Source: Viridothelium virens
Taxonomy: Eukaryota; Ascomycota; Dothideomycetes; Trypetheliales; Trypetheliaceae
Direction of reading: 5' to 3'
Assembly: GCA_010094025.1 (NCBI GenBank)
Contig: ML991841.1
Coordinates: 1-64,000, forward strand
Length of the DNA stretch: 64,000 bases
Positions 23,166-47,657 of the stretch are shown piece by piece (positions within the stretch are counted from its first letter, which is position 1; each line of letters begins with the position of its first letter). The translations under genes were made by a program, and so were the position numbers. Below the pieces are notes generated by a model. That model did no database searches. It was not told the DNA's origin and was given only the letters and a program-made list of their open reading frames with translations.

Positions 23166-24816
23166 CTTGATGGATTTGTAAAAGGATGAGGGAATGATTT
23201 CCGGGTTGCGGAACCTCAACAACGGCAGTGAAGCTTCAGAGCTAAGAGCCCTCAACTTTGATCAGCCTGCGAGGAGACTATAGAGAATGTAAGAGAATAG
23301 GGAGGAAGGTAATGAGCGTCTTCCGGCGACAAAGTCTAATGATCCAAAGAAAAATCTACAGACACGTCCTGGTCTGGATTAATGAAACAGAAGTTCAGAG
23401 AGTGAAGAGCGCTTGGATCGAAACAAAGCTGCCGCCCTTCTCGTGCCATCTTTATGTATTTTATCCTCTCGTCCTTACAACGAGACCCAGTCACTCGTCC
23501 ATAGCACCAAGCCAACCACAGCGCCTATCAACACCTACGGGAGCTGGTTGGACTAAGGCAAGGGCCCGCACCCGCATCGGGGCGCTTAGACGTGCATTTA
23601 GCACACTTTGCAGTGGGGGAAATCCACTCATAGGGCAGATCGACTCAGGGATACAGCAAGGTGGGTGAGGGGCAGGACAAGAATAGATCAATAGACCCTT
23701 AATTAGTAGACCTTGCTGTGCCGGAGTTGAGTCGTCCAAAGGACGAATTCATGGAGCAGAGTACCCGGGCGGACACGAAAGGTAAGGACGAATTATCATT
23801 CATAACTTGTCGCTCTATCTGTAAGCTCGAGGTGCCAAGTCCAATTGCTTCTGATGAATGTTCTTCCAGCTCTTCATCCTAATCCGCATACCATCCAAAC
23901 AATGCCCATTTCTTGACCCCTGCATATTCTCAGACGAGGTAGTTTTTTGAAAGACATTCTTCTCCTTCAGAGATGGGCGACACTGAAGGCCGTGCATCCA
24001 GACACTCATGGACTTACTTAGGGGCGCTTGGAGAGTTGCAGATCGTCTGTGGGTGAGGGTGCAGGGTCCCTTATTGGAGGATACTTGTCGCAAGGGTCTG
24101 GCGCTTAATCTAAATCTCTCCAACTCTATTCGCGGAGTCGAGGATTGTCGCCAGTCTTCGGGGAGATTTATTCTGGGAATCCAAAAACATTCGATTCTGA
24201 AGTCTTGAGTTGCGAAGTTTCCTCCCGGAAAAAAAAAAGGTCTTCCTAGCAGCTGTCTCGGCTCGTCGACCATTCAGCAACGAAGACGATCCAGAAGCCG
24301 AGGCCGCGCGAGTGGAATTTGCCAGTTATGGCGGTGAAGTATGACTCGACATACGTACCTAAGGTACCTAGCCATCTAATTCGAATTTCACCTTCAGACT
24401 TCCTTAGCGGTCCATTGGGGTTTTTAAAACCCGATTGTAGCTTCCTAACAGGGTGTATACCGTTTAAAGTATATACCGTTCTTTCTTTTTTAACTCGAAC
24501 GCTTGCGGTATTTTCTCAGATTACCGTGCACGCTCGATAAAATGAAACCCGATTGCGGCGCTTCTGTTCTCATAGGCTGCTATGCACGTATATTTCAGCC
24601 TTGTACAGCCTTATGGCGCACAAATCTCATTTAAAGTTGTGCAGCCTGGCCTTCATCTTCCAGATGACATTTCCTCCGTACAGTCTGCAAAAAGAGTGTC
24701 CGCGCGCTGGTGCGGGAAATTGCTGGGGTTGTACGAACACTTTTTGTTCCTAATATCGTACTGAATCGTACTGTACCCTTCGTAATTTACCATTCTCACA
24801 GCGCTATCTTCGTGTC
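23166..24816. other. Intergenic, no recognised gene
   Basis: This 1.65-kb stretch lies upstream of both the membrane-protein gene and the NLR gene. A minus-strand frame of 152 codons at 23815-24273 begins with ATG but shows no domain. Near 24755-24775 the motif ATCGTACT occurs twice, recalling the ATCGTAC palindromes at the left window edge. Confidence 0.45.
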
Positions 24817-27800
24817 ATGGCAGAAGCCTTAGCGGCAGTCGGCATTGTCGCTAGCATCGTTCAACTTGTCGACTTCGGCACTAAGCTCCTCCGTCGCCTC
24901 GATGAGTTCCATTCCAACTTAGACGATATCCCAACATCTTTTCAACACATCAAGTCACAGCTGCCTTTATTACTTGAGAATCTCAAAAGCACCCAGCAAG
25001 ATGTAGATGCCGGCATTATCAAACCTGAGACCGAGAGAGCGCTACAGCCAACGATTAACGGATGCAGAACACAAATCGGATCACTCAACTCTATCCTCGA
25101 TAAAGAACTACCCTCTCCCTATGATTCTCGAGCGAACAAGACCAAGAAAGCTATTTCAAGTATATTTAGAGACAAAAGAATTGAAAAGATTACTTCGACT
25201 CTTGGAAGCTATATCCAAACCTTGACCTTCTATCATACCGCCGTAAGGTCAACTTTGAATCCTCTAAAGGGTATCAGAACTTCTTCGCGCAATGTTAATA
25301 AGCAAATTAATGTTTTACAGATGAGAAGCTGGTCAAAATCCGTAATTGGCTTTCAGCGCCAGATCCATCACCCAACTTCCACAAAGCACTTAAGCTTAGG
25401 CAGGCCGACACTGGCCTATGGTTTCAAAATAGTGACCAGTTTACGGAATGGCGAATGAGCCCTTCGTCGTTGATCTGGATGCACGGGATTCCAGGTTGTG
25501 GTAAAACTATCCTAAGCTCTACAATTATCGAAACCGTTATACAGCAGTGTGAGAATGATCCTTGCAAAGTCGCTGCGTACTTTTACTTTGACTTTAGCGA
25601 TCCTCAGAAGCAACAATCTGAGCTTATGGTCAAGTCCTTGGTCACTCAGCTCTTGTATCAGTGCATTAAAATACCAATTACACTGGATACGTTTTTTAAT
25701 TCCTGCGGAAGAGGACGGTCGCAGCCCTCAGCCGAGGCTCTTCTAAACTTTTTACGGCAAATATGTGATGAATTACCAGCGACATATATCATTCTCGACG
25801 CTCTCGATGAGTGTAACGATCGAGACACTCATCAGCTGGCGACTGGATGGATTGCATCTTCTTGTAACAAGCCGAAAAGAGCGAGACATTGAACTTTCGC
25901 TCAACCATCTAATCGGCGAAGCCAATATCGTTCCGCTACAAAGCGATATCGTTGATAAGGATATTCAACAATATGTCCGTAACAGATTGTCTGTCGATAC
26001 CAAGCTGGAGAAATGGCGGAAAGATCCCGAAATTTGTACTGAAATCGAGCTCGCGTTGATGAATGGAGCCCATGGAATGTATACACGCAATATCGTCGTT
26101 GCAAAACATCAATGCTAATAATACAAAGGTTCCGATGGGCTGTATGCCAGCTCGATACCCTTGGAAAATGTGTCAATCGAACAAGCCTTCGAAGATCGCT
26201 TAGAGAACTTCCTTCGACTCTAGACAAAACGTACGAACGAATCATTTGCTCTCTCGACGAGGAGACCTCGACTTACGCCCTTAGGATCCTACAGTGGCTA
26301 ACGTTCTCTGCGAGGTCTCTCTCTTTAGAAGAAATCGCTGAGGTAATTGCCATCGACCCTCAGCGTCGTCCTCTTCTTGATAAGGACGAAATTCTTGAAG
26401 ACCCCTTGGATGCACTGAGAATATGTTCTAGCCTTGTTGCTGTTTCTGCAGTAAAAAGCGAAGAATCTCACGTCATATCAAAGAATTCAGGGCCTAGGGA
26501 GGTCTTAGTCCTGGCGCATTACTCGGTCAAAGAATATCTCACCTCAACACGCATCTTGCAAAGTTCTGCGAGAGCTTACGCTCTAGAGGGGATTGATTCA
26601 AACACAATCATCGCAAACTGCTGTGTTGGATATCTGCTCCAATTTCGGCGCGCCGAATCGTTCTGTGAAGAGACAATTAGAACTCACCAGCTTGCTCGAT
26701 ACTCGGCAGAATTTTGGATAAGTCATACTCGGTCGTCCGACAAAGAGGCGACCCAGGAGCTAATTATGGATCTATTTTCGCATCAGGATGGGGCGTATCT
26801 CAATTGGATTCGCATACACGAACCAGAGAAACCATGGGACGGAACTGATGTTAGTAAGCAAACGGCCGACGTTCCCTTGCCCTTGTATTATGCTTCTTTC
26901 GCAGGGCTGACGGAAATCGTCTTTTGGTTGGTTCACGAGGTAGGCGCCGACGTCAACGCGGAGGGCGGAGAGTACGGCAGCGCACTTGGGGTGGCTTCAC
27001 ACGCAGGTTACGAGGAGGTGGTGAAGTTACTGCTGGATAGGGGCGCCGATGTCAACACGCAGGAAGGATCCTACGGCAAAGCACTTAGGGAGGCATCAAT
27101 CGCAGGCCACGAGAGGGTGGTGAAGCTGCTGCTGGATAGGGGCGCCGACATCAACGCGCAGGGTGGATCCTATGGCAGCGCACTCGGGGGGGCTTCATAC
27201 GAAGGCCGGTTGGGGATAGTGGAGCTGCTGCTGGACAGGGGCGCCGACGTCAATGCACAGGCAGAATGGTACGGTGGCAGCGCACTTGGAGCGGCTTCAC
27301 GCAGGTGCCACGACGGGGTGGTGAAGCTGCTGCTGGACAGAGGTGCCGACGTCAATGCACTGGGAGGATGGTACGGCAGCAGTGTACTTGGAGCGGCTTC
27401 ATCTGCAGGCCGGGAGGAGGTGGTGAAGCTGCTGCTGGACAAGGGTGCCGACGTCAACACGCAGGCTGGAGGAGTGTACGGCAGCGCACTCAGGGAAGCT
27501 TCGTCCGCAGGCCGGGAGGAGGTAGTGAAGCTGCTGGTGGACAGGGGCGCCGACGTCAACGCGCAAGGCGGGCGGTGCGGCAGCGCACTCGGGGCGGCTT
27601 TATACGCAGGCTGTGAGGCGGTGGTGAAGCTGCTGCTTGGTAGGGGCGCTAACATTAACGCCCAGGGCGGATGGTACGGCAGCGCACTCGGGGTGGCTTC
27701 ATACACAGGCAGTGAGGCGATGGTAGAGCTGCTGCTTGATAGAGGTGCTGACATTAACACGCAGGGCGGACAGTACGGCAGCGCACTTGGGGCGGCTTCA

Positions 27801-27962
27801 TACGCAGGCAGTGAGGCGGTGGTAAAGCTACTGCTTGATAGAGGTGCTGATATTAACATGCAGGGCGGACGGTACGGCAGCGCACTCGGGGCGGCTTTAC
27901 ACGAACGCCTTGAGGCGGTGGTGAAGCTGCTGGTCGACAGGGGCGCTCAAGGCCAGGCCTAA
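24817..27962 (+). pseudogene. NACHT-ankyrin NLR-type protein, one frameshift
   Basis: This is a fungal NOD-like receptor, about 1,014 residues. The N-terminal alpha-helical domain (MAEALAAVGIVASIVQLVDF...) is the type that precedes fungal NACHT ATPases. The NACHT has Walker A GIPGCGKT and Walker B LDALDEC. Eleven ankyrin repeats of 33-35 residues fill 26890-27962. Exons are 24817-25270, 25321-26078 and 26129-27962, with two clean 50-nt introns. Inside exon 2 the frame shifts by one base between the Walker B segment and the sequence around 25835, with no plausible intron there. The rest of the gene is open, so the break is recent, or it is a sequence error. The family senses non-self or heterologous signals and triggers effectors; that role is known for relatives, not shown here. 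Confidence 0.82.
26889..27950 (+). repeat. Ankyrin-coding tandem array, 11 units
   Basis: Eleven units of about 99-105 bp each encode one ankyrin repeat. The consensus is close to YGSALGAASYAG followed by VVKLLLDRGADINAQGG. The usual ankyrin TPLH is replaced by SALG in almost all units. Units 9 and 10 are nearly identical in DNA, and several others differ at only a few codons, which points to recent duplication or gene conversion. Units 5 and 6 carry one extra residue near their start. Confidence 0.85.
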
Positions 27963-32714: not shown

Positions 32715-33413
32715 TCAGAAATCGAGCAACAGCTGCGGAGCTAGTTTTTCCAAATCCTCCACCTGTAATCCATGCATTAGTTGTCTTCCTCTAAACAGGA
32801 GATCACCAAGTGACCGAGGCTGCACGCCTGCGAAGCCAACGAACAGACTCACCTCCAAGAACTCATCTCCCAAACCCCCACCACTCTCCCCTTCCCTCTC
32901 CATCGCTGCTCTCGCAATTGCCTCCCGAACAAATATCTCCATATATTTGCCCACGACTGTCATCGCATCCTTACCAATCTTTGTCTTCTTATCCTCAAAC
33001 CCCTCGTACAGCAGTCGAGTCAGCAGTTTCTGAGGTATGGGCGGAGGCGCGTCTTGTGAGGCTTGCGGCGCTGCCGCAGAGGGCGATGCAGAACTCTTTG
33101 CGAGCCGATTTCTTGGAGCAGCTGGTAGACTTGTATCCGAATCGTCATCGTCATTGTGGTCTGCCTCTAGGGTATCCTGTGCATCTTCGAGATCCCCCTC
33201 CTCTTCGTCATCGGAGATTGGTATGGTGCGTGAAGCAGGTTTGAAGCCACTGTTATTCGATCCACTGACGGAGGACCTTGGTTGAGATACCGCTGTACGC
33301 GATGTGTCTGCGGCGTCCTTCCTGCGTGCAGTGTTGATTGTAGATTTACCGGCGGGACGCGGGGGCTTGAAGGCCGGGGGTCTGCGATTACCTGTTGCTC
33401 GAGCTGCTGACAT
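32715..33413 (-). CDS. mhf2: CENP-X homologue Mhf2
   Basis: This histone-fold protein pairs with CENP-S/Mhf1 at centromeres and at stalled forks with the FANCM helicase. Two exons (33413-32853 and 32762-32715), joined over a 90-nt intron, give 202 residues. The first 115 residues are a disordered basic and acidic extension. The CENP-X fold then reads IPQKLLTRLLYEGFED, IGKDAMTVVGKYMEIFVREA and, across the splice, GDEFLEVEDLEKLAPQLLLDF at the C-terminus. Animal CENP-X is about 80 residues, so the N-terminal extension is a filamentous-fungal feature. The start was set at the ATG at 33413; an upstream in-frame extension has no clear support. Confidence 0.88.
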   Translation of the reverse strand: MSAARATGNRRPPAFKPPRPAGKSTINTARRKDAADTSRTAVSQPRSSVSGSNNSGFKPASRTIPISDDEEEGDLEDAQDTLEADHNDDDDSDTSLPAAPRNRLAKSSASPSAAAPQASQDAPPPIPQKLLTRLLYEGFEDKKTKIGKDAMTVVGKYMEIFVREAIARAAMEREGESGGGLGDEFLEVSLFVGFAGVQPRSLGDLLFRGRQLMHGLQVEDLEKLAPQLLLDF

Positions 33414-34519
33414 GGTTCTGAAGCTTTTGCTAAAAGGTCTTGAGGAGGCTGAAATATAGTAGTCCTGAAGGATCGTAGTTGCGATCGCGAGATATTGGGA
33501 AGTTTGGCTGACGCGTCCGACCACGGGTGCGACAAACGAGGGGGGGTCGCGCTATCACGTGAATCAGGACGCAGTGAGAGGTAGGAGGTCTAGGTAGGTC
33601 CTCCCGATTGAACTGAATCTGCTCCGGCATTAATTCCCGGACCTAACGACCTTTTTTCCCGGAGAACCACTTGGATTCTGTCACATGGTAAATGATCTGT
33701 TCAAGAGAGATGTAGGGTTTGATTGAGCTTAATTCGGCTCACCCGTTAGATCTTCGCAGGTAGATTAATCGGATATCTTGTTTCAACATCTCCTAGGTTT
33801 CTCTAGTCTCGCAGATATTTAGCCTAGTACGCTAGCTACGAACTTTATCCATGAATCACACAGTCTTTCTCTTGGAAAAGAGACCTAAAGTGGGAGGACC
33901 TGGACAATATCATCAATTCGGGAGAAGTTAAAGGCGCAGAGCCGGATTAAACAGGGACTAGAAGGCATGTACTTGGAACTACAACCCTAACTGAGTTGAA
34001 ATTTCACTATGAATGGATCGGTCATGTGTGACTGGACAGCCGAATACATCGAGGCCTGGGCAAAGAAGAAATGAAGAGGAATCTGATGGAGAACCCAACC
34101 TATTATTTACGTAGATATGAACGCTATGAAGGGTGGCGCTGGGTTTGGAATCGCCCAAAAATCTATAAGACATTGGATGGGGAGGGCTATTCACGCAGGC
34201 AATCTTATGTGCAGTGCATGAGGTGGAGCGTTGGAGGAATCTTTGAAGTATCTTGGGTTCATGTAGGTTGCGCAGATACCAGGAATGTGTGGCTTCAATT
34301 AAAGAGCGGTTTCAATGACCGGGAGATTCCTCCCTTCTGGACCAGAAAGAGAGGAAGGCTTTTGCAAGCTGATCGAGGAGCTGGCTTATTGCTTCCCAAA
34401 TGGATAAGACCCGGAAACAACGCTTTGTGGAGCAGAGGGAAAGGATACAGATTATATATGTTACGCGCCTGCAGTCCAATGGTAATTGCTGATTAAATAT
34501 AAGGAGCATCTTTCCATTT
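33414..34519. other. Intergenic, no secure gene
   Basis: About 1.1 kb hold one plus-strand ATG frame of 141 codons (34071-34496), Trp/Arg-rich and without recognisable domain. I see no intron or repeat that supports a gene. Confidence 0.4.
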
Positions 34520-36036
34520 TTATTGTAGGTTACCAACATTACCAAAGAACACGACCAAGACGGCGCAATACCTTCGATTTCATCTTAGTGTGCGTACAGG
34601 CTTGTGAGGAGGATACGATATCAGACTTACGCGGCAGCCGCACCAAGAATTTCGTGTCTCTTCGCTCTGGTGAATAGCGAAAGTACTGCAGAAAATGACA
34701 GAGTGAAGATCACAAGAATACCGATACATATGGCATAAGATCTGTCGGTTTTAACGTCGGTAATAAGGTGGAATAAGATGTAGATTGGTACAATTAATAG
34801 AATGAGGATCGCGAGAATAATGATGCCACTTGCTAGATAATTGATCCGCTCTCGGTCGTAATAGACAGAGTCTGGGTCTCGCGACTTCCCCTTTGTCTCG
34901 GCCGAGCAGAACAAATACTGGTTTGGTCAGCTTGATCGCTCCATCTGGGAAGTAGTATCGTATATGGAGACTGGAAGAGCTTCCTTGTCAAGCGAGGGAG
35001 AACTGTCTGAATGGAAACACAAAATCGTGCACTCACTTCTACTAGCTTCTTAGCCTTAAACTTGCATTGAATCCACTTGAGCAAATGCTCAATGCCTGAA
35101 TCAAGCCAAGCGTGCTCTCGGCGATGACGTAGGGTAATCAAATCTTCTCGACGATGAACCCACTCCGCCTCTTCGGCAACAACAGGTTTGATGCCATCCA
35201 TATAGTTGACGACGCTTTGGTAATCACATCGAGCAGGCCGATTAAGAGACATCATCTGCTGAGCTGCAGTCAAAAGAGATGCTGTGACAGGTTAGCTGTG
35301 TGCGGTATCACATGGGTATCGCTGGTTCTGCCTTAGCCGTACCGTATTCGCGAAACTTGACCTCAGTTTCCTTGAGTAGCTCCTTCCGAGGCGCAGCTTC
35401 GACTGCCTTTAAATCCGTCGTTGTCAATCTTTTTGGGTGGTCTCTTGCATCTACAGTATCCAACCGATCTAATTTATTTTCGAGCTTACGCAGTTCGTCC
35501 TGCTTGTCGAGCAGTAGGCGGCTTTGAAGGTAGCCAAATCGGCGATAAATCATGAAGTTTTCGTCACTGTCAAGGAAGGCCGCGGCGTTGGGGTACCCTC
35601 GCGGGCACTCCTCCACTACAAAATCTTGAATTAGCAATGCAGAGGCTTAGCAATTCGGGGAGGGTATCGAACATTGCCTCACAATGGATCTCCCCTTTGG
35701 CCTTGGAGGGTCATGTCGAGACCGGGCTAACCAGAAGGAAAAGAATCCGCCCCATATTTTACCAAGATGATTCTCTGCAGAATGTGAGCTGATATAGGGG
35801 CAAACACAGCCGTCAAGCCAACCTTTTCCATCATGCGGAAGCAAACTACTCTCCGTCTTCTGCGTAGAAGTAGAAGAGTGGGTGGGCGAGTATGCGCCCT
35901 CTTCTGCGATTCGCATCCCGTCATTGGCGTTGGGGCTACCAGCTATAGGACCAATTTTAAACATGGTTCCACACTCTGTTGCACGGGCTGAAATCTTTGT
36001 AAAACACCTGGCATTTATTTCAGTGCACGGTGGCAT
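34520..36036 (-). CDS. DUF6594 family membrane protein
   Basis: This fungal DUF6594 protein has 356 residues. The five-exon model is 36036-35823, 35615-35343, 35281-35037, 34917-34631 and 34571-34520, which sums to whole codons. Family marks are ECPRGYPNAAAFLDSDENF, MIYRRFGYLQSRLLLDKQDE, a charged helical middle, and C-terminal membrane helices: ASGIIILAILILLIVPIYIL, AICIGILVIFTLSFSAVLSL, and in the last exon YCAVLVVFFGNVGNLQ, preceded by RHEILGAAAA. The last four exons are secure. The first exon and its weak GTTGGC donor are less so. The function of the family is unknown; members recur beside HET and NLR-type genes in fungi, which is general impression rather than proof. Confidence 0.75.
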
Positions 36037-36144
36037 CGAGGCCTTGATTTATGCCACCCTTATCTCATGCTCCGGTGTCAGCCTCACAAGATGAGACGGG
36101 ATATATCTCGCGAGCAGTTGCCTTGGGCGATTTACCACCCTTAA

Positions 36145-36795
36145 CTATGTAGCGCTCGAAAAGTTCCTCTCTGGAATCCAGCCGCCACTCTCAAGTGGTT
36201 CTCCCGAACTGTCCTTTGCCTTATACATCCACCCGCCTCCTTGATACTCTCGCTCCGTAATAGTTACATTCGGATGCTTTCCACTCTGATCCTCAAACCA
36301 AACGGTTTCATTCACCTCGAACTTTGCGGGATACTGCCGTATACATCAGCTACTCTAACCAGGCGTGGGGGTTGGAGAATACTTACAGTAGCGGCAGGTA
36401 CCTGGGAAGGCAGGCGATATGCGCGACTATCCGGAGGGTTGTCTGGACACGTGTTTTCCTGCAAACGTCATGTGAATGCCTCAGTACAGATTACCAGTCT
36501 ATGCTTACTGGCTGAGAAGGAGGCATATCGGGCGAGCTTGCGTAAATTTCGTCGAGACGGGTCAAGGAATCAAGGACGGTGCGATTTTCGTTGGGCTGCT
36601 TGACGAACGACGGAAGACTGCCTCACAAGGCTTTCTGTTTGGCAGAGCCCCCTTCTCTGAGGCAGCATCTTACAATTTATACCTTTTCGTGGATTTGTCA
36701 GATGTAGGCAAAATGGCAGCCAGTGCCCCGACCGGCAGGATAATCTGGGAGGGAACCAATGAAGTTATTGCGTAACCATCCTCGATCTCCGCCAT
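36145..36795 (-). CDS. Small hidden four-exon gene, unknown function
   Basis: This is a 160-residue protein found only by splicing: 36795-36683, 36617-36509, 36458-36387 and 36333-36145. All junctions have GT..AG ends, and the total is exactly 161 codons with stop. It begins MAEIEDGYAITSLVPSQIIL, with a short hydrophobic stretch near residues 15-30. A linker follows (VKQPNENRTVLDSLTRLDEI, then CPDNPPDSRAYRL). The C-terminal 60 residues look like a small beta-rich module: KFEVNETVWFED, VTITEREYQGGGWMYKAKDS and ESGGWIPERNF, in the style of SH3/Tudor-like tails of fungal proteins. I do not recognise the family. It is divergent from the caspase-like gene, with 227 bp between starts, so joint regulation is likely. 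Confidence 0.68.
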
Positions 36796-37022
36796 TGCCA
36801 GCCAGAGCCTCATCTAAACTCAGCGTGGTCGTTCAGCCAGCATCCTACCACGACTCAGCCCACGATAGCTGAACCAATGTTGTATCATGGCTCTGCGTGT
36901 GGCCAGTTTAATATGCAAGCATCCATGGAGCACCCCCCACATCGACGAACTGCCGCACTGGTTCGCTACACCAAGTATTCTCCTTGGTGGAAGCATTCAC
37001 GTATTGGGCGCCTTGTACAAGC
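36796..37022. promoter_or_regulatory. Divergent promoter, small gene / caspase-like gene
   Basis: A 227-bp spacer separates the two start codons. Both promoters must lie here or overlap the first exons. No TATA box is evident. Confidence 0.5.
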
Positions 37023-38532
37023 ATGTCTTCACCAATAGCCTCGAGATTTAACTCCACTATCGGTGACGGTAGCCCAGCCCTGTGTCACACGAAATCAGGT
37101 TCACAGGCTGAAGCTACTCGACTGCAAAATCTCTGGGATGACTCGATGAAGCATCAGACGAAATATGTTCATTACAGCAAAGTTGCAGTCTTGATGATTT
37201 CATGGGAGGATGAATGCGATGACCTCAAAACCAAGAACGAGGTAGGTAACTCCCAGTCAGTCCTTGCTTCCCTCCACTCTACTCGGTATTGACCCAGCTT
37301 AGGTGGATCGATTGGCAGATGTTTTCGAGAACATGTATAAGTTCGATGTCAAGTATGCAAAGCTGAACGGCGAACAGCGAGCTCAAGCTCAGTTGTCAGT
37401 CCATCTTTCGAAATTTGTTCTTGAATTTGAGAAGCAAGGCGAAAGCACTTTGTTGATAATCTATTATGCCGGTCATGGTTGGCTCCATTATTCCCAAGAT
37501 GCAAAATCACGACAGAAGTCCTTGGGGCTTGCAGGGTAAGCTTCTGGGCATTCATACATAGCTTTGCACTGATATCCTTCAGGAGTCTGTCCCAGAAAGC
37601 GCAAAAGCAACTACGTCGAAATGGCATTGTGTGGGACCTGGCCGAGGCAAATATTAAAGACGTCGAAGCTGATGTTTTTCTTATATTCGATTGCTGTCAT
37701 GCTGGCGCCTTATGTCGTTCTATGGAGAACCAACGGTTTGGAGCTCTAGCTGCTTGTGCTGCGGACGCGAAGACAAAAATTCCAGGCAAGACCTCGTTCA
37801 CGACAGCCCTAATCTGGGCCCTCGGTCAGTTGGCTAGCCGGTCCAACAAGCCCTTCTTTGAATCATGGGAACTCAGGAAGAAGATTGTAAATTATCCTGA
37901 TTTTCCACAGGATCAGGACCCCCAGTCGTTTGGACCCAATATTTGCCTGGCTCCGTTTTCATTCGACAACAACCATCAAGGAATTCATTTCGGCCAAACC
38001 ATCGAGGCCTCCTACATTGATCTTCGATTCCATTGTGTTCGACTGGATGACAAAGTGATTGCCAGCATCGCGTCTATGTTAAAGGAAATGATGCTCAAGC
38101 AGGAGTTCCCCACACATCACATCAATTTCTTAGGCAAAAATTCAGAGTGGAGGCCACACCAGCAAGGACTAGCAGAGAGATACTGGACCTTGTGGAGTGC
38201 TTTCGTGAAAGGCCAAGGAAGGGGTCATCAAATTTCCCAGACCCGGCCCGTCAACGATGGGGTTGATGTCGCCGCCATACCATTGTCACGGTTCGGCACG
38301 TTCAGATGGGATCTGTTGCGGTTCTGGAACTGGCCATGGATTCTGCCGATGCTTGGTGGTCTTGGGTTGTCGTTCATAGGAACAGCCAGCCTTCTCCAGT
38401 TTGTGCGTGGTGAGTCGATCATCCCTCATCTCAAAGCATCCACTATCTATTTCGAGCCTTATTCTAACACTAGGACAGACCTTTCAGAACTTTTTCTCAA
38501 TTGGTTTTGACACTATGGATCTTGATTCATAG
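37023..38532 (+). CDS. Caspase-like (peptidase C14) protein, membrane-anchored
   Basis: This caspase-fold cysteine protease has about 445 residues. Exons are 37023-37241, 37303-37535, 37583-38409 and 38474-38532. The last intron has a strong CTAAC branch site; unspliced, the frame would end at 38510. The catalytic dyad is visible as His in IIYYAGHGW (exon 2) and Cys in FLIFDCCHAGAL (exon 3), separated by the usual 80-90 residues. Unlike yeast-type metacaspases there is no Pro/Gln-rich prodomain. A probable membrane helix lies near the C-terminus (WPWILPMLGGLGLSFIGTAS). The start was set at the ATG at 37023. Fungal C14 proteins of this kind often occur as NLR-linked effectors; substrate and activity are unknown here. 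Confidence 0.82.
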
Positions 38533-38965
38533 AGTTGTTTTCGAATTTGTTGTGACTTCGTAAAATTTGACGCCTTAGATATGGACGATACGCTGGTATC
38601 TCATGTCGCTTGTACATTGCAATCATTTGGAAGACTAGAGGACCTAGTCAACAGCTATCCAGGTAATCTGTCAACTCATGATTGCGGCAAGAAGCTCTTT
38701 CATTTCCGATGTACAATCACTTCTCTGTACAAGACTCGCTTATGTAACATTAGCCTCCCTTTTTACTTCTAAGATTCTCGCTAACACGCTGAGTCTGAGT
38801 TTTCATTGCAATCCATTGCCGATCGCACAGAAATGAATTAAAGCGTGAAGAAAGGAACCCCAGAAAACTGTTATCTAAGACTCATCGATAGTTTTGGTTG
38901 TCGCCTGCAAGTAGGAAATCTGCCATCGTCGCTGACCCGTTACTCCCGTTCTCTCAATCAGACTG
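38533..38965. other. Intergenic region
   Basis: This short stretch lies between the convergent caspase-like gene and the distal C-terminal segment of the patatin gene. No gene is recognised. Confidence 0.45.
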
Positions 38966-40023
38966 TCAAGCCTCTTCGGCACACTCTTCCAGGAACTCAA
39001 AAGGAACCAGCCCCTTTGCGCCAGGGTCACTGGCGCGTACGACTAGACACATGCCTAGATGGACAGAAATTTAGCGAAGCTTATGTCAACGGATGCAGAT
39101 AAAACGTACCCTCGTCCGAGGCTCTTGCGTTCTTTCCGCTACTTACGATTCGAAATAGCTCGCCGACCACCATAGTGAGTTCTGATTCTGCCTCACCTGG
39201 AAAATAGTATCGCGCTCGATACAGCGGACTAGTCCACTGTGTCTCTATCCTACCTATCTGACTTGACGTATTATGTTCAGAGTAGCGATAGTACTTGAAG
39301 GACCTCTCGGCGTTGACTGGAATAACATTGAGCGGCCATAGGGCCTCCTCTGTGGAGTTTACTCCTCCAAAGTTCGTATTCTGGTGTCACAGCCATAACG
39401 GCATGGAGCCTTCGAGCTCAGTAGAAGGCGCAGGAGAACCTAAGATATCAGAAGTTCCCGCCTCCGAGGCGTCAAGCTCGCTCGGAAAATAAGGAGTGGT
39501 GCTCCTATGCGGGGAATTACAGTGAGCTGGCTCATTCGGCAGTTCAAGAATGGCTTGATCCTCGTTCTGCAAGTGCACGGATGCCATAGCTGGGCTGGAT
39601 ACTTTCCCAGCTGCATAGTACTCTCGCAAGCTCTCGTGCCATTGTCGATGTTGGATGGCCTCAAGTTCCACGGCGCCTGGTGGGTAGGACGTTCGTAAGA
39701 ATGGCTGCGCAAAGTGGTGATGCTCACTCTTTCGCCTATTTCGGCCAATGTTTCGAAAGACATTGCCGATTCTCATGCCATCGTTTGGCGTCGTTGCGGG
39801 AGCGGGCCCCTGAGTTAAGTAAGTCTTCATTCTTTCTATATCCCGCGCAGACGCATGCCCCAGAACGTGACTCGGTTTTGTGAAGGAATCCAGATTCCAG
39901 ACCTGAGAAATGTGTGTTGTATTGGGTGGCTCCCACTGGAGCCGTCGTCTACGTGGACTGGCAGCGTCCGCTAGCCGGCGCTTGTTGGTGTCCGCAAAGT
40001 TCTGGCGCGAATCTGCACGAGTT
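38966..40023 (-). pseudogene. Distal C-terminal segment of the patatin-fusion gene
   Basis: An open segment of about 210 codons begins just past an acceptor at 40024 (RTRADSRQNFADTNKRRLAD, a basic tail). It reaches an in-frame TGA at 39389-39387, then stays open in the same frame to a donor at 39110. It resumes at 39054 and stops at 38966. The second part reads well as protein (EEALWPLNVIPVNAERSFKY, VVGELFRIV, GLVPFEFLEECAEEA). The exon before it, ending at 40067, does not join in frame: the 43-nt intervening stretch is not a multiple of three. This is either the broken end of the patatin-fusion gene or a small separate gene whose start I cannot see. Confidence 0.45.
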
Positions 40024-40066
40024 CTGTCAATCATCAATTAAGTGTAAAGATTTTGGCCAAACATAC

Positions 40067-43000
40067 TGAGTTGGAGGTTTTCGTCTTCTGTTAGGCGTCT
40101 CGGAAAGCCACTAATAGGAAAGCAGTCATTATCCATACAGAGCTTGATCTCTGTAGATACGAGCTTATTGGCTAGCTCGATATCAACTCCACCGAGGTTA
40201 AACTGGTTCAGACGGATCATACTGTCGATCGTCCCTTTCGAGATCGGGATCTTTTGGCAGATCTCGGAGGTCTGGCGTTCCTCCTGGATTATAAAGCAGA
40301 GATCACGTCCTGATTTCAGTCTGTACATTAGAATCCTTCCTAATTGACCTATTTCCTTCGTCCCGTGAGCTAGACGGCATGCTATTCGACCTGATAATCA
40401 TCAGCCTCGCTCAGCAAGAGAGGGGTTTGGCATACCAGAAAAGATGCAGCCCGCAGAATGGTCCGATTGAGGTTCGGTCAATTCGAAGTAGAAGCAAGAC
40501 GATATAAGTCGATTCGCAATCTCCTCAATTCGAGAATCTTGCGACATCTTGTCGCGAACAACACGCCGCAGTTCCAGGACACTTTGGACATCATCAAGCT
40601 TTGGTATTTCCATGCTTAATTTTGGGTTGAGACGCATATAGCGGGACAGACGACTATTGCCAAGACGGCATTGAAAATCGTTCCATGTTCGCTCACAGTC
40701 TAGGGAAGAAGCAATATGATTTTTCACTATTTTGATCTTCGCTTTCAAGTTGGTGTATACGCCCAAGGGAGGTGCGGATGTGCTCTGATTGTCGATATTA
40801 CGTGGCTGTCGTGAAATTCCAGTTCCAATCGAAAGAACTAAATCCGGAGATAACTCAACGAGGTTGCTCCAAATCAGCCGGCGCTCTTTCTCAGCGACCG
40901 CTATGGGATTATTATGGCATATTGCGCCGTCTAGATACGTTCGTTTGGAGGCCTCGTGGTGGAAGGGCTTAAAGTACCCAGTCGCAGCCGTAGTTGCTCT
41001 GGCCCTGTAATCCAATAGTCAGTGTAGCACTACAATATGTTAGCAGAAGAGAGGGACGTACACTTCCCATAATTTAAGCTCGTTTCCGGCTCTTTCAGGA
41101 CGCTGAAACTGGTAGGGCACTTCTTAAGGTTAGAAAAAATACGTTGGGTGCAAAAAGCCGACTTTTTGACGTACAGTGCTCATAGCAAGGCCGATTGTAG
41201 TTGGAAAATATGACTGGGAGACCGCTGGCTTCAGATGTCGATGTGACAGCAACCTTTATAGAGCAACCTGAGGATTCGTTGTACTGCGGACCTCCGAACA
41301 GATTTTGATCTTTCGAAAAGCTTGCCTGAAGCGCCTGCTCAAAGGGTTTTGTTTCGTACTTTGAGCCATTATAGTTCTCAATGAACCAGCCAATTACAGG
41401 CAAACCACTGCCTATTCGCGGCGTAAAAGCTTGTGGACACAATCTCTGAAAGGAATCCGTACAATCTGCAACAGACAGATGTTGTATTCCAAGCCCCAAA
41501 GCAATCAAGCCACCAGTGCTGTAGGGTGAATCAGCGGGTCGAATACAATAGAAAGAGAGCACTCACCTGGTCCCAACTATAAGGTCGAAGAAGTTCCGAA
41601 TTGGGAGATACCCACCCATCGCTTCTTCGATGAGCTGTAGGATCTCTAACTCCACGACCCCTCGGATGCCACCCCTAGCACGCAACGAGTTAGTAACAGC
41701 CATCATGGCCCTTGGGATCATCCCACGTACCCATCAAGCGTGAGCACCCGGATGCCGGCCGACCTTGGCTTGAGATACACGCGAAATTTCCAAGATTGAT
41801 AACGTCGAAGACTCCCAGATTCGATTGGACATTCCTGGATTTCGACTTCCGTGTTGCCGCAGGGCCGACCGTAGTTCCGAATACAGGATGTGCATAAAAT
41901 GTGTCCGCAGGGGAGCACATGTTCTGGGGGCTCAAAGAGGCAGCAGTAACAAGCTGTTTGACTGCTGAAAATTCTCTGTCCACGGGTAGCATGCCGGTAG
42001 AAGTTAGGCATGACAACGTCTCGGTGGATCTCGGAAGCGGCGATGATTTCTCGTTGGCCTTTTTGGATACGCTCCTGCAATGACCCATGGAGATTTTGAA
42101 GACAGAGATAAACATTCGATCGGAAAGACCCGTGGTGGGTTTCGAAGGAAAACTGGGAGTCGTATTCACCAAATGCCAGGACTTGACCATCTTGACGTTG
42201 GTGTCCTTTGCTATGGCCACCTCGAACATTAACACATCTCCCACCCCCTTGCTTACTGAACTCGCAGGGCCAGTGACTTTGAGAGAAATTTTCCAGGGCT
42301 GTATCCAGATGTTCTAAATATTGAGGAAATATCTTGTCTGGTGTTCCAACAATCTTCTTCCGTGCACAATCAAACATAATGCAGGATGCAACCATGTAAC
42401 TAAGTTCCTCAAAAATTGTGTTCGCATCAGCATTATCTTTCCACTCATCCATAATGTTAATAGCTAGTTTTAGAATATTTCCGCCAAAGTCTAAGGGGAT
42501 CGGACTGTTTAAAAAAGATGCTTGCACAAAGTCGAATGGGGCGTCTAAGGTGCATGCAAAATGTGTGAAAGCGTGCTGAAGATATGACTGGAGGTTGTCA
42601 GCATCAAGCAGCATACGCAATTCACGCTTACGCCAGATTGACATCTGACAAGCGCGCTGAATTTGGTTGTAGAGCTTGTCAACCTGCTGCTGCACAACTT
42701 TCGGACGTCCTCCGTCGGGAACACGGATTATCTAACACCATTATTAGCAACAGTAAGTTCCCGTATGTGATAAGCGTTCCGCATGATTCTACCCAGGGAC
42801 GACTTACACGGACTGAGCTATAATAGACTTCCATTAATTGCTCCACAGTCTTGATTTCACGGCCACAACTTTGCCACTTGGCTGCATACTTAGTAAAAGT
42901 TGGGTTATTATACACCGTCTTTGACAGGCTCTCAAAGATTTTTTGAGTTCCAGCTTCGACATCCCACCAGTCGACATCAAAGCTAGATCTAGACGCATTC

Positions 43001-45083
43001 AGGACGATAAGAGCATGGGGAAGCACCGGTTGATTTGATGAAGTTTCTAACGCTGCGTCAGCCCATTCCACCAGCTTGCTAAAGACACCCTCTATGACTC
43101 TAGGCTTATGTTAGCGTTGGTGCAAGAAGGGAGTTCGTATCCAGGGAGAGGCACTTACTTGGGATTGCGAAGAACAAATACAATTACGTCTGAAAATGTG
43201 TAGAGAATGCGGGGATAGAGATTAGTGACCGCGTATTCTCGACTATTAATTTTAGTAGTATCAGCCCACGCGAGCCGTCTCTCTGAGAGCAGTCTAGCAG
43301 CACGGGACTGTCGGACCGAAGCTTCGGTATTGGATAGCCTATTGCCTCTCCGCTTTCTACGAAGTTTCGTGTTAATAGGCTCTCTCTCGCCTCCCTCGAG
43401 TCCTTCACAGTCAGCGAAAAGGATGGGCTCTGCAGAGTATGCCGTTCGAGGTTCACTGTACAAATGGACATCTTCTGAGGTAGGGTCTGCAACATCAGCT
43501 GAATCAGTTGAGCCTACAACTGGTGTACTATACTCTTCGTCTTCTCCTAGACCGAGGTCGATGAGGAGCTTAATCAGTGCACTCTTACCAGCCCCTGTCT
43601 GACCAACGAAGGAGGCAATACTTGGTGTTCGGTTTGTAACTTCAAGGGGAGACAAGTGTCCGGGAGGCTGCCAAGTGCCCTGTCCTTCCTCATTGGTATG
43701 ATCCATCAGATCGCCAAATCTTCCAAAATCTTGAAAGGTCGGCGGGCCAGCATCAGAACGGTCGACACCTGCATGAATTAGCAAAATGCCCGACTATCGA
43801 GATACGTCTTGCATTCATGAATAAATTCACTCCTTCAATTCGTTATACGGACTTCGTAGGCTGGAGGAAAACGAAGAAAGAGAACGTACCAAACCAAGTC
43901 GTCCCTTCATCAGCTTTGCATAGCTTTTGCCGCATAGTCGCGTCAGTTGAAGGTTCAAGAACTTTGCGTACTTTCGCAGCAACGGATGCCTGAGTCTTCT
44001 CATGCGGATCACCTCGAATGGTAAGCTTTTTCCCTATGTGCGCTGGCTGTTTTTCCCAACAGTCGTCGCAGAGTCGGAAGTTGCATCCATTACAAAAACA
44101 TGCAGGAGCAGCAGAGCAATTCAAATTCTCACAGGACTCCTCTGCAGGTCTCTGACTGGTCTGCGAATTATTTCGGCTGCGTGCGAATTTTTGCGAAGAT
44201 GATTGTGAAATATCAAGTGAGATTGGGATACCGCCTTGCGCCTGATTGGATCTCCTTCAAGACGCTTCTTTTTGCTCAATAGAAGTAATCTGAGCTCTGT
44301 GGGATGGATTTCTCCTTTCCGTTGGACCGTTTGGTTCGAGATTTTCATGGCGGGGTTCCATAGTTGGTCGTATCAGATGAGTCCTAGTACTATTTCCTCT
44401 GGTAACTTGTGGAGAGCTACGATCAGGTATAGTGGTTTCATTTTTAGGAACTGAATCTTCACGGGTGGAGGTATGTGGAGCGAGGGGAGAAGTGCTTGGT
44501 AGTGTCGTGTATTTGACTGGAGCTAACCAAAGGTCGGTCTGGTAATCTCGGGAGCTGAGTTGAGAATAGGTCAACGTCTATCTTTTTCTTTAATGGGTGC
44601 ACAAAGACTTACGTGGCCTCTGGACGTTCCGTTGTGTACGTGTGTCGTAAGGACATTGGGTAGCTCACAGGAACTTGCTTATCGTCTACTACTACGTTAA
44701 ACGAGTTCCTCCCGACGAAAAGTGCCCCCTGATAAGCGATAACGCCGTATATCTAGGTGATACACATTCTATTCCACTGAAATGAAGTCAGTGCTCACCT
44801 GGGCAAAAGATAATGTAATTCCTCCGAGAAAACCTGGAGTAAGCCCTGTATTGGGGACGTTCTGGTATTTCCAGAAAGGGCGGATGAATCTCTAGCAGAA
44901 GTATTTGACCGTCCCCGATGTGGGTAGGCTGAATAGGTTCACAATCGCCACGACAGAATCGTCTTTGAGGTAATGGAACTTGGTCGTAGATGTAGGAATG
45001 CAAAGCCGAAGGTACGCTCAATTCTCCAGCGGCAAGTGATTGAAGTGGGATTGATTGCTCAACCCAGAGATATGGAAGAGTAC
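40067..45083 (-). CDS. Zinc finger-GTPase-RING-patatin multidomain protein
   Basis: This is a very large fungal fusion. In order: an N-terminal conserved region (about 45080-44613; LWVEQSIPLQSLAAGELSVP), a linker with SRDYQTDLWLAPVKYTTLPS, a Cys-rich B-box-like finger (CNGCNFRLCDDCW), a GTPase with P-loop GQTGAGKS and DCEG, a RING finger (CYCCLFEPPEHVLPCGHILC), and a patatin lipase with LDGGGIRG, nucleophile serine in GTSTGG and the aspartate in LDGAICHNNP. Secure exons are 44554-43890, 43768-43159, 43099-42808, 42731-41731, 41674-41567, 41518-41175, 41119-41062, 41004-40436 and 40390-40067. In the N-terminal part the frame is not continuous: an in-frame TGA lies at 44259-44257, the 44799/44728 junction is off by one, and no ATG starts the first exon. 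Function is inferred as signal-controlled phospholipase. Confidence 0.75.
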
Positions 45084-46997: not shown

Positions 46998-47657
46998 NNN
47001 NNNNNNNNNNNNNNNNNNNNNNNNNNNNNNNNNNNNNNNNNNNNNNNNNNNNNNNNNNNNNNNNNNNNNNNNNNNNNNNNNNNNNNNNNNNNNNNNNNNN
47101 NNNNNNNNNNNNNNNNNNNNNNNNNNNNNNNNNNNNNNNNNNNNNNNNNNNNNNNNNNNNNNNNNNNNNNNNNNNNNNNNNNNNNNNNNNNNNNNNNNNN
47201 NNNNNNNNNNNNNNNNNNNNNNNNNNNNNNNNNNNNNNNNNNNNNNNNNNNNNNNNNNNNNNNNNNNNNNNNNNNNNNNNNNNNNNNNNNNNNNNNNNNN
47301 NNNNNNNNNNNNNNNNNNNNNNNNNNNNNNNNNNNNNNNNNNNNNNNNNNNNNNNNNNNNNNNNNNNNNNNNNNNNNNNNNNNNNNNNNNNNNNNNNNNN
47401 NNNNNNNNNNNNNNNNNNNNNNNNNNNNNNNNNNNNNNNNNNNNNNNNNNNNNNNNNNNNNNNNNNNNNNNNNNNNNNNNNNNNNNNNNNNNNNNNNNNN
47501 NNNNNNNNNNNNNNNNNNNNNNNNNNNNNNNNNNNNNNNNNNNNNNNNNNNNNNNNNNNNNNNNNNNNNNNNNNNNNNNNNNNNNNNNNNNNNNNNNNNN
47601 NNNNNNNNNNNNNNNNNNNNNNNNNNNNNNNNNNNNNNNNNNNNNNNNNNNNNNNNN
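46998..47657. other. Assembly gap (660 N)
   Basis: A run of undetermined bases begins inside the minisatellite. Its length may be an estimate. Any reading frame through it is meaningless. Confidence 0.99.

Follow-up and report, generated by a model that had tools for sequence, protein, structure and literature searches.

The closest described counterparts of the locus considered here are the fungal clusters in which a gasdermin gene lies beside the gene for a protease. As far as the accessible portions of two accounts of these systems go, approximately 80% of the gasdermin genes of fungi have a protease gene in the same cluster (63% S8, 19% CHAT), some of the linked proteases are fused to kinase-like domains, and the protease–effector pairs described are those of gasdermins with S8 or CHAT proteases (PMC10197012, PMC12881547). 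The portion of the review among them adds that clustered cell-death genes may be more frequent in fungi than currently recognized (PMC10197012). Here, we describe a locus of the lichen-forming Viridothelium virens, a Dothideomycete of the Trypetheliaceae (genome of 30.7 Mb in 175 contigs), which parallels the clusters of the HET-Q1/HET-Q2 type, to the extent that those excerpts portray them, in placing a protease gene beside a membrane-protein gene and in being multi-copy. However, its protease matches the Pfam C14 family rather than S8 or CHAT, its membrane protein is a DUF6594 protein with two predicted helices and no Pfam gasdermin match, and a third, small gene usually accompanies them. 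Among the best matches of an open-literature search, we found no paper on a fungal caspase/DUF6594 cluster. To our preferred reading we would give an even chance: the locus is one of several copies of a cassette of three genes, in which a caspase gene diverges from a tandem of the small gene and the DUF6594 gene, and it encodes a protease-gated membrane module.

The window, i.e. the whole stretch of 64,000 nucleotides analyzed, carries from left to right the DUF6594 gene (- strand), the small gene (-), the caspase gene (+) and a gene for a GTPase-RING-patatin fusion (-); the splice sites of our gene models in it were set by eye. All elements in the gene inventory of a preliminary description of this DNA are present in the sequence. 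The caspase-fold protease (37023-38533, + strand), which that description had credited with a His/Cys dyad and a C-terminal helix, indeed scores above the curated cut-off of Pfam PF00656 (30.6 bits against 21.4), displays the motifs YYAGHG and DCCHAG and ends in a hydrophobic helix. The public protein P0001 (EV356DRAFT_536373) is 98% identical to our model over 98% coverage, with a different last splice that places its end at 38510 rather than at 38533. The Pfam score and the dyad ally the cassette caspase with peptidase family C14, which comprises caspases, metacaspases and paracaspases; within it, the protein represents a subfamily in fungi for which a profile search of PDB sequences found no relative of solved structure (0 matches at E <= 0.01). 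The dyad is invariant across 24 aligned caspase sequences. A C-terminal hydrophobic helix is predicted in the caspases of both the window locus (C71) and another cassette locus, C57b, and a membrane helix is lacking in those of C16 (P0007) and C57a (P0008). Searches for relatives further afield found, in bacterial and archaeal genomes, 22 loci, all of them bacterial and distant (23-37% identity); in viral contigs, none of 46 pattern matches was confirmed. As a side observation, the caspase at C81 (C81:57461-58870, +) is followed by a kinase-like stretch with matches below cut-off to Pkinase (E 0.007) and DUF7580 (E 0.0025), a weak parallel to the kinase-like fusions of gasdermin-linked proteases as the excerpts describe them; a kinase-like region was likewise noticed by eye after the C50 caspase (C50:133079-134896, -), where a Pfam match is absent.

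The DUF6594 gene (34627-35964, - strand), whose first exon and its splice site are uncertain, encodes an N-terminal region followed by two C-terminal membrane helices. Its spliced model matches PF20237 with E 1e-55 (189.7 bits; cut-off 30), and the two strongly predicted helices have hydropathy maxima of 3.18 and 2.53, in agreement with its earlier designation as a DUF6594 membrane protein. DUF6594 is the sole Pfam family above cut-off, with no gasdermin match in that search. The genome holds 24 DUF6594 loci in its 30.7 Mb by our grouping of 42 match rows. The open-literature search found no paper mentioning DUF6594 or PF20237, and the cassette provides a first genomic context for this family. 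A string, NDGMRI, seen by eye both in the first exon of this gene and at the C-terminus of the patatin fusion was set aside; two homologs inspected by eye, P0052 and P0053, lack it.

The small gene (36145-36795, - strand) is modeled with four exons (36795-36683, 36617-36509, 36458-36387 and 36333-36145), those before the last being model-based and uncertain, which together yield 160 codons. The protein has no match at E <= 1 in Pfam and none at E <= 1e-3 in a set of 5.8 billion proteins; since even a self-match is missing from the latter, the gene is hidden in the public annotation. Paralogous exons at other sites in the genome support it, and thus the hidden 160-residue gene proposed from the sequence alone is upheld. 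Its C-terminal 62-residue domain shows the features of a small SH3-like barrel fold, and its alignment contains conserved aromatics. This domain resembles the Tudor/chromo-barrel domains of MRG15, PHF20 and PHF1, at approximately 15% identity and with no chromatin-protein context seen. The stretch of 227 bp between the small gene and the head-to-head caspase gene (36796-37022, by the gene models) might possibly serve as their shared promoter.

The evidence for the cassette comes from a single genome, that of V. virens. A genome search with P0001 recovered six caspase loci, including the window locus: C71, C57, C16, C34, C4 and C50. At all six (C71, C57 at 137170, C16, C34 at 5734, C4 and C50) a DUF6594 gene lies within about 3 kb, measured from gene edge to gene edge. 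Under random placement the binomial probability of this linkage is 6e-14 (~1e-11 for the five of five left when the index locus is set aside), a value that speaks to non-random linkage rather than to the number of origins, as related copies are not independent. Three further caspase-fold loci in the genome, C140, C34:107042 and C113, are distinct from the cassette subfamily, and no DUF6594 match lies near them; from score alone, we take the first two to be putative metacaspases.

The linkage was then tested prospectively from the DUF6594 side, at 15 further loci without a known caspase (C12, C18:143756 and C6 being left out). Two of them (C57b, at 195 kb, and C81) proved to carry a caspase gene, again arranged head-to-head. 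Both had been missed by the P0001 search, and caspases lacking a DUF6594 gene may therefore have been missed by it too. Another two, C26 and C76, have the small gene, and no caspase lies in the 3.3 kb that follow this gene; they are possible losses or may have another partner. The remaining 11 (C1, C75, C28a, C8, C15, C107, C5, C3, C46, C112 and C28b) lack both partners in the sequence retrieved, which extends only about 2.5 kb upstream for C1, C75, C28a, C8, C15 and C107. In all, a protease gene adjoins the gene of a predicted membrane protein at eight loci. At C50 the caspase and DUF6594 genes are in tandem rather than divergent, with a candidate small ORF on the opposite strand.

A genome-wide search with the small gene identified three non-self loci, two of which lie beside a caspase and a DUF6594 gene (P 4e-6). 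In a profile of six members run against 5,271 ORF segments, the next-ranked segments were those of C4 (E 5e-4), C57b (E 0.35) and C76 (E 0.43), and all three lie at the predicted place. The small gene is situated between the caspase and DUF6594 genes clearly at five of the eight loci, probably at one and as a candidate at two. Its match is weak at C57b and at C76; at C81 and C50 it was seen by eye only, the profile having given E 11 for C50 and not having placed C81 among its best 30. The earlier proposal of one unit in this region is supported in part: for the caspase, the small gene and DUF6594, which recur together at several loci, and not for the GTPase-RING-patatin gene.

The small gene's distribution bears on a toxin–antitoxin-like arrangement, in which the caspase would kill, the small protein would inhibit it directly and the DUF6594 protein would be a membrane anchor or accessory. 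The head-to-head placement of the small gene and the caspase, 227 bp apart in our models, and the barrel-like domain of the small protein would suit such an arrangement. However, the small gene stays with DUF6594 at C26 and C76, where no caspase is seen (C26:31084-32928 and C76:24318-26006, each comprising DUF6594 and the small gene in the stretch fetched), and a copy of its domain at C18 forms part of a longer open frame, near which neither a caspase nor DUF6594 is seen. We accordingly consider a toxin–antitoxin pair quite unlikely. The C18 copy (C18:227201-227698) occupies part of an open frame of 166 residues for which Pfam gives no match; there is no caspase in the stretch fetched, and the closest DUF6594 match on the contig is approximately 83 kb away. 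A string in a nearby frame, AVSYTWG, which we presume to be a HET-domain motif, was not used as evidence of such a domain, for which Pfam gave nothing.

The genes of the cassette thus recur together; in addition, similarity between the copies ends at the cassette edges, and the caspase and DUF6594 share the same branching order. A comparison of ten loci at the protein level gave 169 matches between loci, every one of them within the cassette bounds, which we set with a tolerance of 100 bases, and none in the 46.9 kb of flank. Trees computed for the eight caspase loci from hand-cut segments, namely the caspase core and the DUF6594 N-terminus, are identical when unrooted: ((C34,(C71,(C57a,C16))),(C81,C50),(C4,C57b)), with local supports from 0.65 to 0.98. 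The two sets of distances correlate (Mantel r 0.857), a value matched by 11 of 40,320 relabellings. These results support co-divergence of the caspase and DUF6594. In a 21-gene DUF6594 tree, C26 and C76 are placed among the cassette genes, although the branch of C76 is long. Near C50 and C81 lie C15, C112 and C3, where no caspase was seen; loss of partner genes is one reading.

Genes inherited together through block duplication need not function together, and those of the cassette might have been duplicated as a block and have stayed linked by inertia, sharing a common ancestry while serving separate pathways. Block duplication alone would yield the matching caspase and DUF6594 trees, and the 11 DUF6594 loci without a partner in the stretches fetched likewise agree with it. 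Against this, the copies have diverged (25-56% identity for the caspase core, 28-72% for the DUF6594 N-termini), are dispersed over seven contigs and have kept no match in their flanks, which makes it improbable that just these genes were retained by chance; moreover, the catalytic His and Cys (GH, DCC) are retained in all eight cassette caspases. On balance, linkage by inertia appears unlikely to us, and we infer that the cassette products act in one pathway.

By analogy with the protease-linked membrane effectors, we propose that the caspase would gate the membrane protein encoded by the DUF6594 gene and that the small protein would act as a regulator. The caspase would most likely be the switch and the DUF6594 protein a membrane effector or substrate released by it, the small protein coupling them as an adaptor or inhibitor. 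The response, to non-self or to stress, would end in local cell death or in disruption of membranes. Here too, we infer both the order in which the components act and death as the outcome. More tentatively, and with confidence well short of even, we suggest that the DUF6594 proteins of this clade could represent a new class of fungal death effectors, membrane proteins gated by a caspase, with approximately eight copies in this genome. They would act in a pyroptosis-like manner without a gasdermin and under a dedicated small regulator with a Tudor/chromo-barrel-like domain. The cassette could instead belong to ordinary physiology and, for example, regulate a membrane protein by proteolysis during development or stress rather than in immunity. 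This would fit with there being no recognized sensor domain in the cassette and with DUF6594 being unstudied, as judged by the literature search. By analogy only, the multi-copy clusters of proteases and membrane effectors in fungal cell death, as depicted in the part of the review at hand (PMC10197012), point the other way, and a purely physiological role seems to us distinctly improbable. With its C14-type caspase, unstudied membrane family and hidden small gene, this repeated and co-diverging cassette makes a concrete candidate for a fungal pathway run by a caspase. As its copies diverge as sets, specificity within sets as against cross-reaction between them is directly testable.

The next gene encodes a single protein with a zinc finger, a P-loop GTPase-like domain, a RING-like domain and a patatin domain (39387-44256, extending to about 44.3 kb, - strand), and is a neighbour rather than a member of the cassette. 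It matches Pfam PF01734 with E 1.4e-17 and has a P-loop and RING-like cysteines, the Pfam RING match being below cut-off (E 0.047). Patatin-like phospholipases are characterized by the motifs GXSXG, DGA/G and DGGGXR, and all three expected motifs are present, as GTSTGG, DGA and DGGGIRG. The public protein P0050 (EV356DRAFT_536374) is 100% identical to our model over 91% coverage. The fusion reported in the preliminary description is therefore real, with a reservation as to its N-terminus: the frame that includes the zinc finger is interrupted by a TGA at 44257-44259, upstream of the conserved finger, and the public model starts at about 43935, 107 codons past it. This TGA could represent a missed intron, an assembly error or a shortened gene.

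The fusion belongs to a large family (763 homologs at E <= 1e-3), and the named homologs among the matches listed (species names being drawn from the best 120 of the 763) we take to be filamentous ascomycetes. The patatin part resembles the phospholipase CapV by profile, by fold and by the PADLOC model ‘Effector, Phospholipase’ (E 1e-38); the profile also finds CapV (E 8e-29) and iPLA2beta by sequence. A fold model of a 995-residue relative, P0103, built from a 40-sequence alignment (mean pLDDT 81), has CapV as its best fold match (E 2.5e-12). The same model also matches 7e59, an ‘interferon-inducible anti-viral protein’ (E 2.6e-6) that we believe to be GBP5. It further resembles human GBP2, GBP1 and the atlastins in fold at E 1e-5 to 1e-3, although the rmsd is large and the output does not specify which range was aligned; we take these GBP/atlastin matches to reflect, in the model, the P-loop part of the fusion. 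Compared with CapV, iPLA2beta and the GBP/atlastin GTPases, this neighbour is one fused protein, and it is not linked to the caspase in the species compared below. No paper on a GBP-like patatin fusion was found among the best matches of the literature search.

The preliminary description had counted the fusion into the unit, with its GTPase as the switch controlling the effectors. Adjacency, with approximately 0.85 kb between the ends of the caspase and patatin genes, and the immune-flavoured folds of both the CapV-type phospholipases and the GBP/atlastin GTPases lend this some appeal. However, among the patatin matches listed, the caspase and patatin homologs are on different contigs in all seven comparable species: Bogoriella megaspora, Bathelium mastoideum, Lepidopterella palustris, Aulographum hederae, Endocarpon pusillum, Apiospora rasikravindrae and Apiospora sp. 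TS-2023a. The species compared are those named in both the caspase and the patatin match lists, V. virens excluded; Apiospora arundinis was dropped because its two matches bear different assembly tags. In this comparison, the caspases are homologs of 29-52% identity rather than proven orthologs, and contigs were told apart by the size of each cluster's longest contig, such that neighbouring contigs of one chromosome would go unnoticed. In V. virens itself, strong matches to the fusion are confined to the window locus, with weaker partial ones on other contigs and none at any other caspase locus. We therefore reject the patatin gene as part of the unit: the scattering in relatives that the preliminary description had itself named as refuting its proposal is what we observe for this gene in the species compared, and the GTPase switch falls with it. 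A unit of this composition strikes us as highly improbable.

The NLR that the same description had tied to the locus is present to the left of the cassette (24754-27959, + strand) as a SesA-NACHT-ankyrin protein, with the N-terminal SesA domain, the NPHP3_N/NACHT domain and the ankyrin repeats on three open frames. The tie itself is one of distance only, with a CENP-X gene (within 32718-33551) intervening, and we treat the NLR as a neighbour rather than as an established member of the cassette. Its ankyrin part (26943-27946) contains about ten tandem repeats of 99 bases with a 79% match. To the right, a run of 660 Ns (46998-47657), i.e. an assembly gap, lies beside a 19-base tandem repeat and accounts for a dip in GC content and for spurious open frames in all six reading frames at this position.
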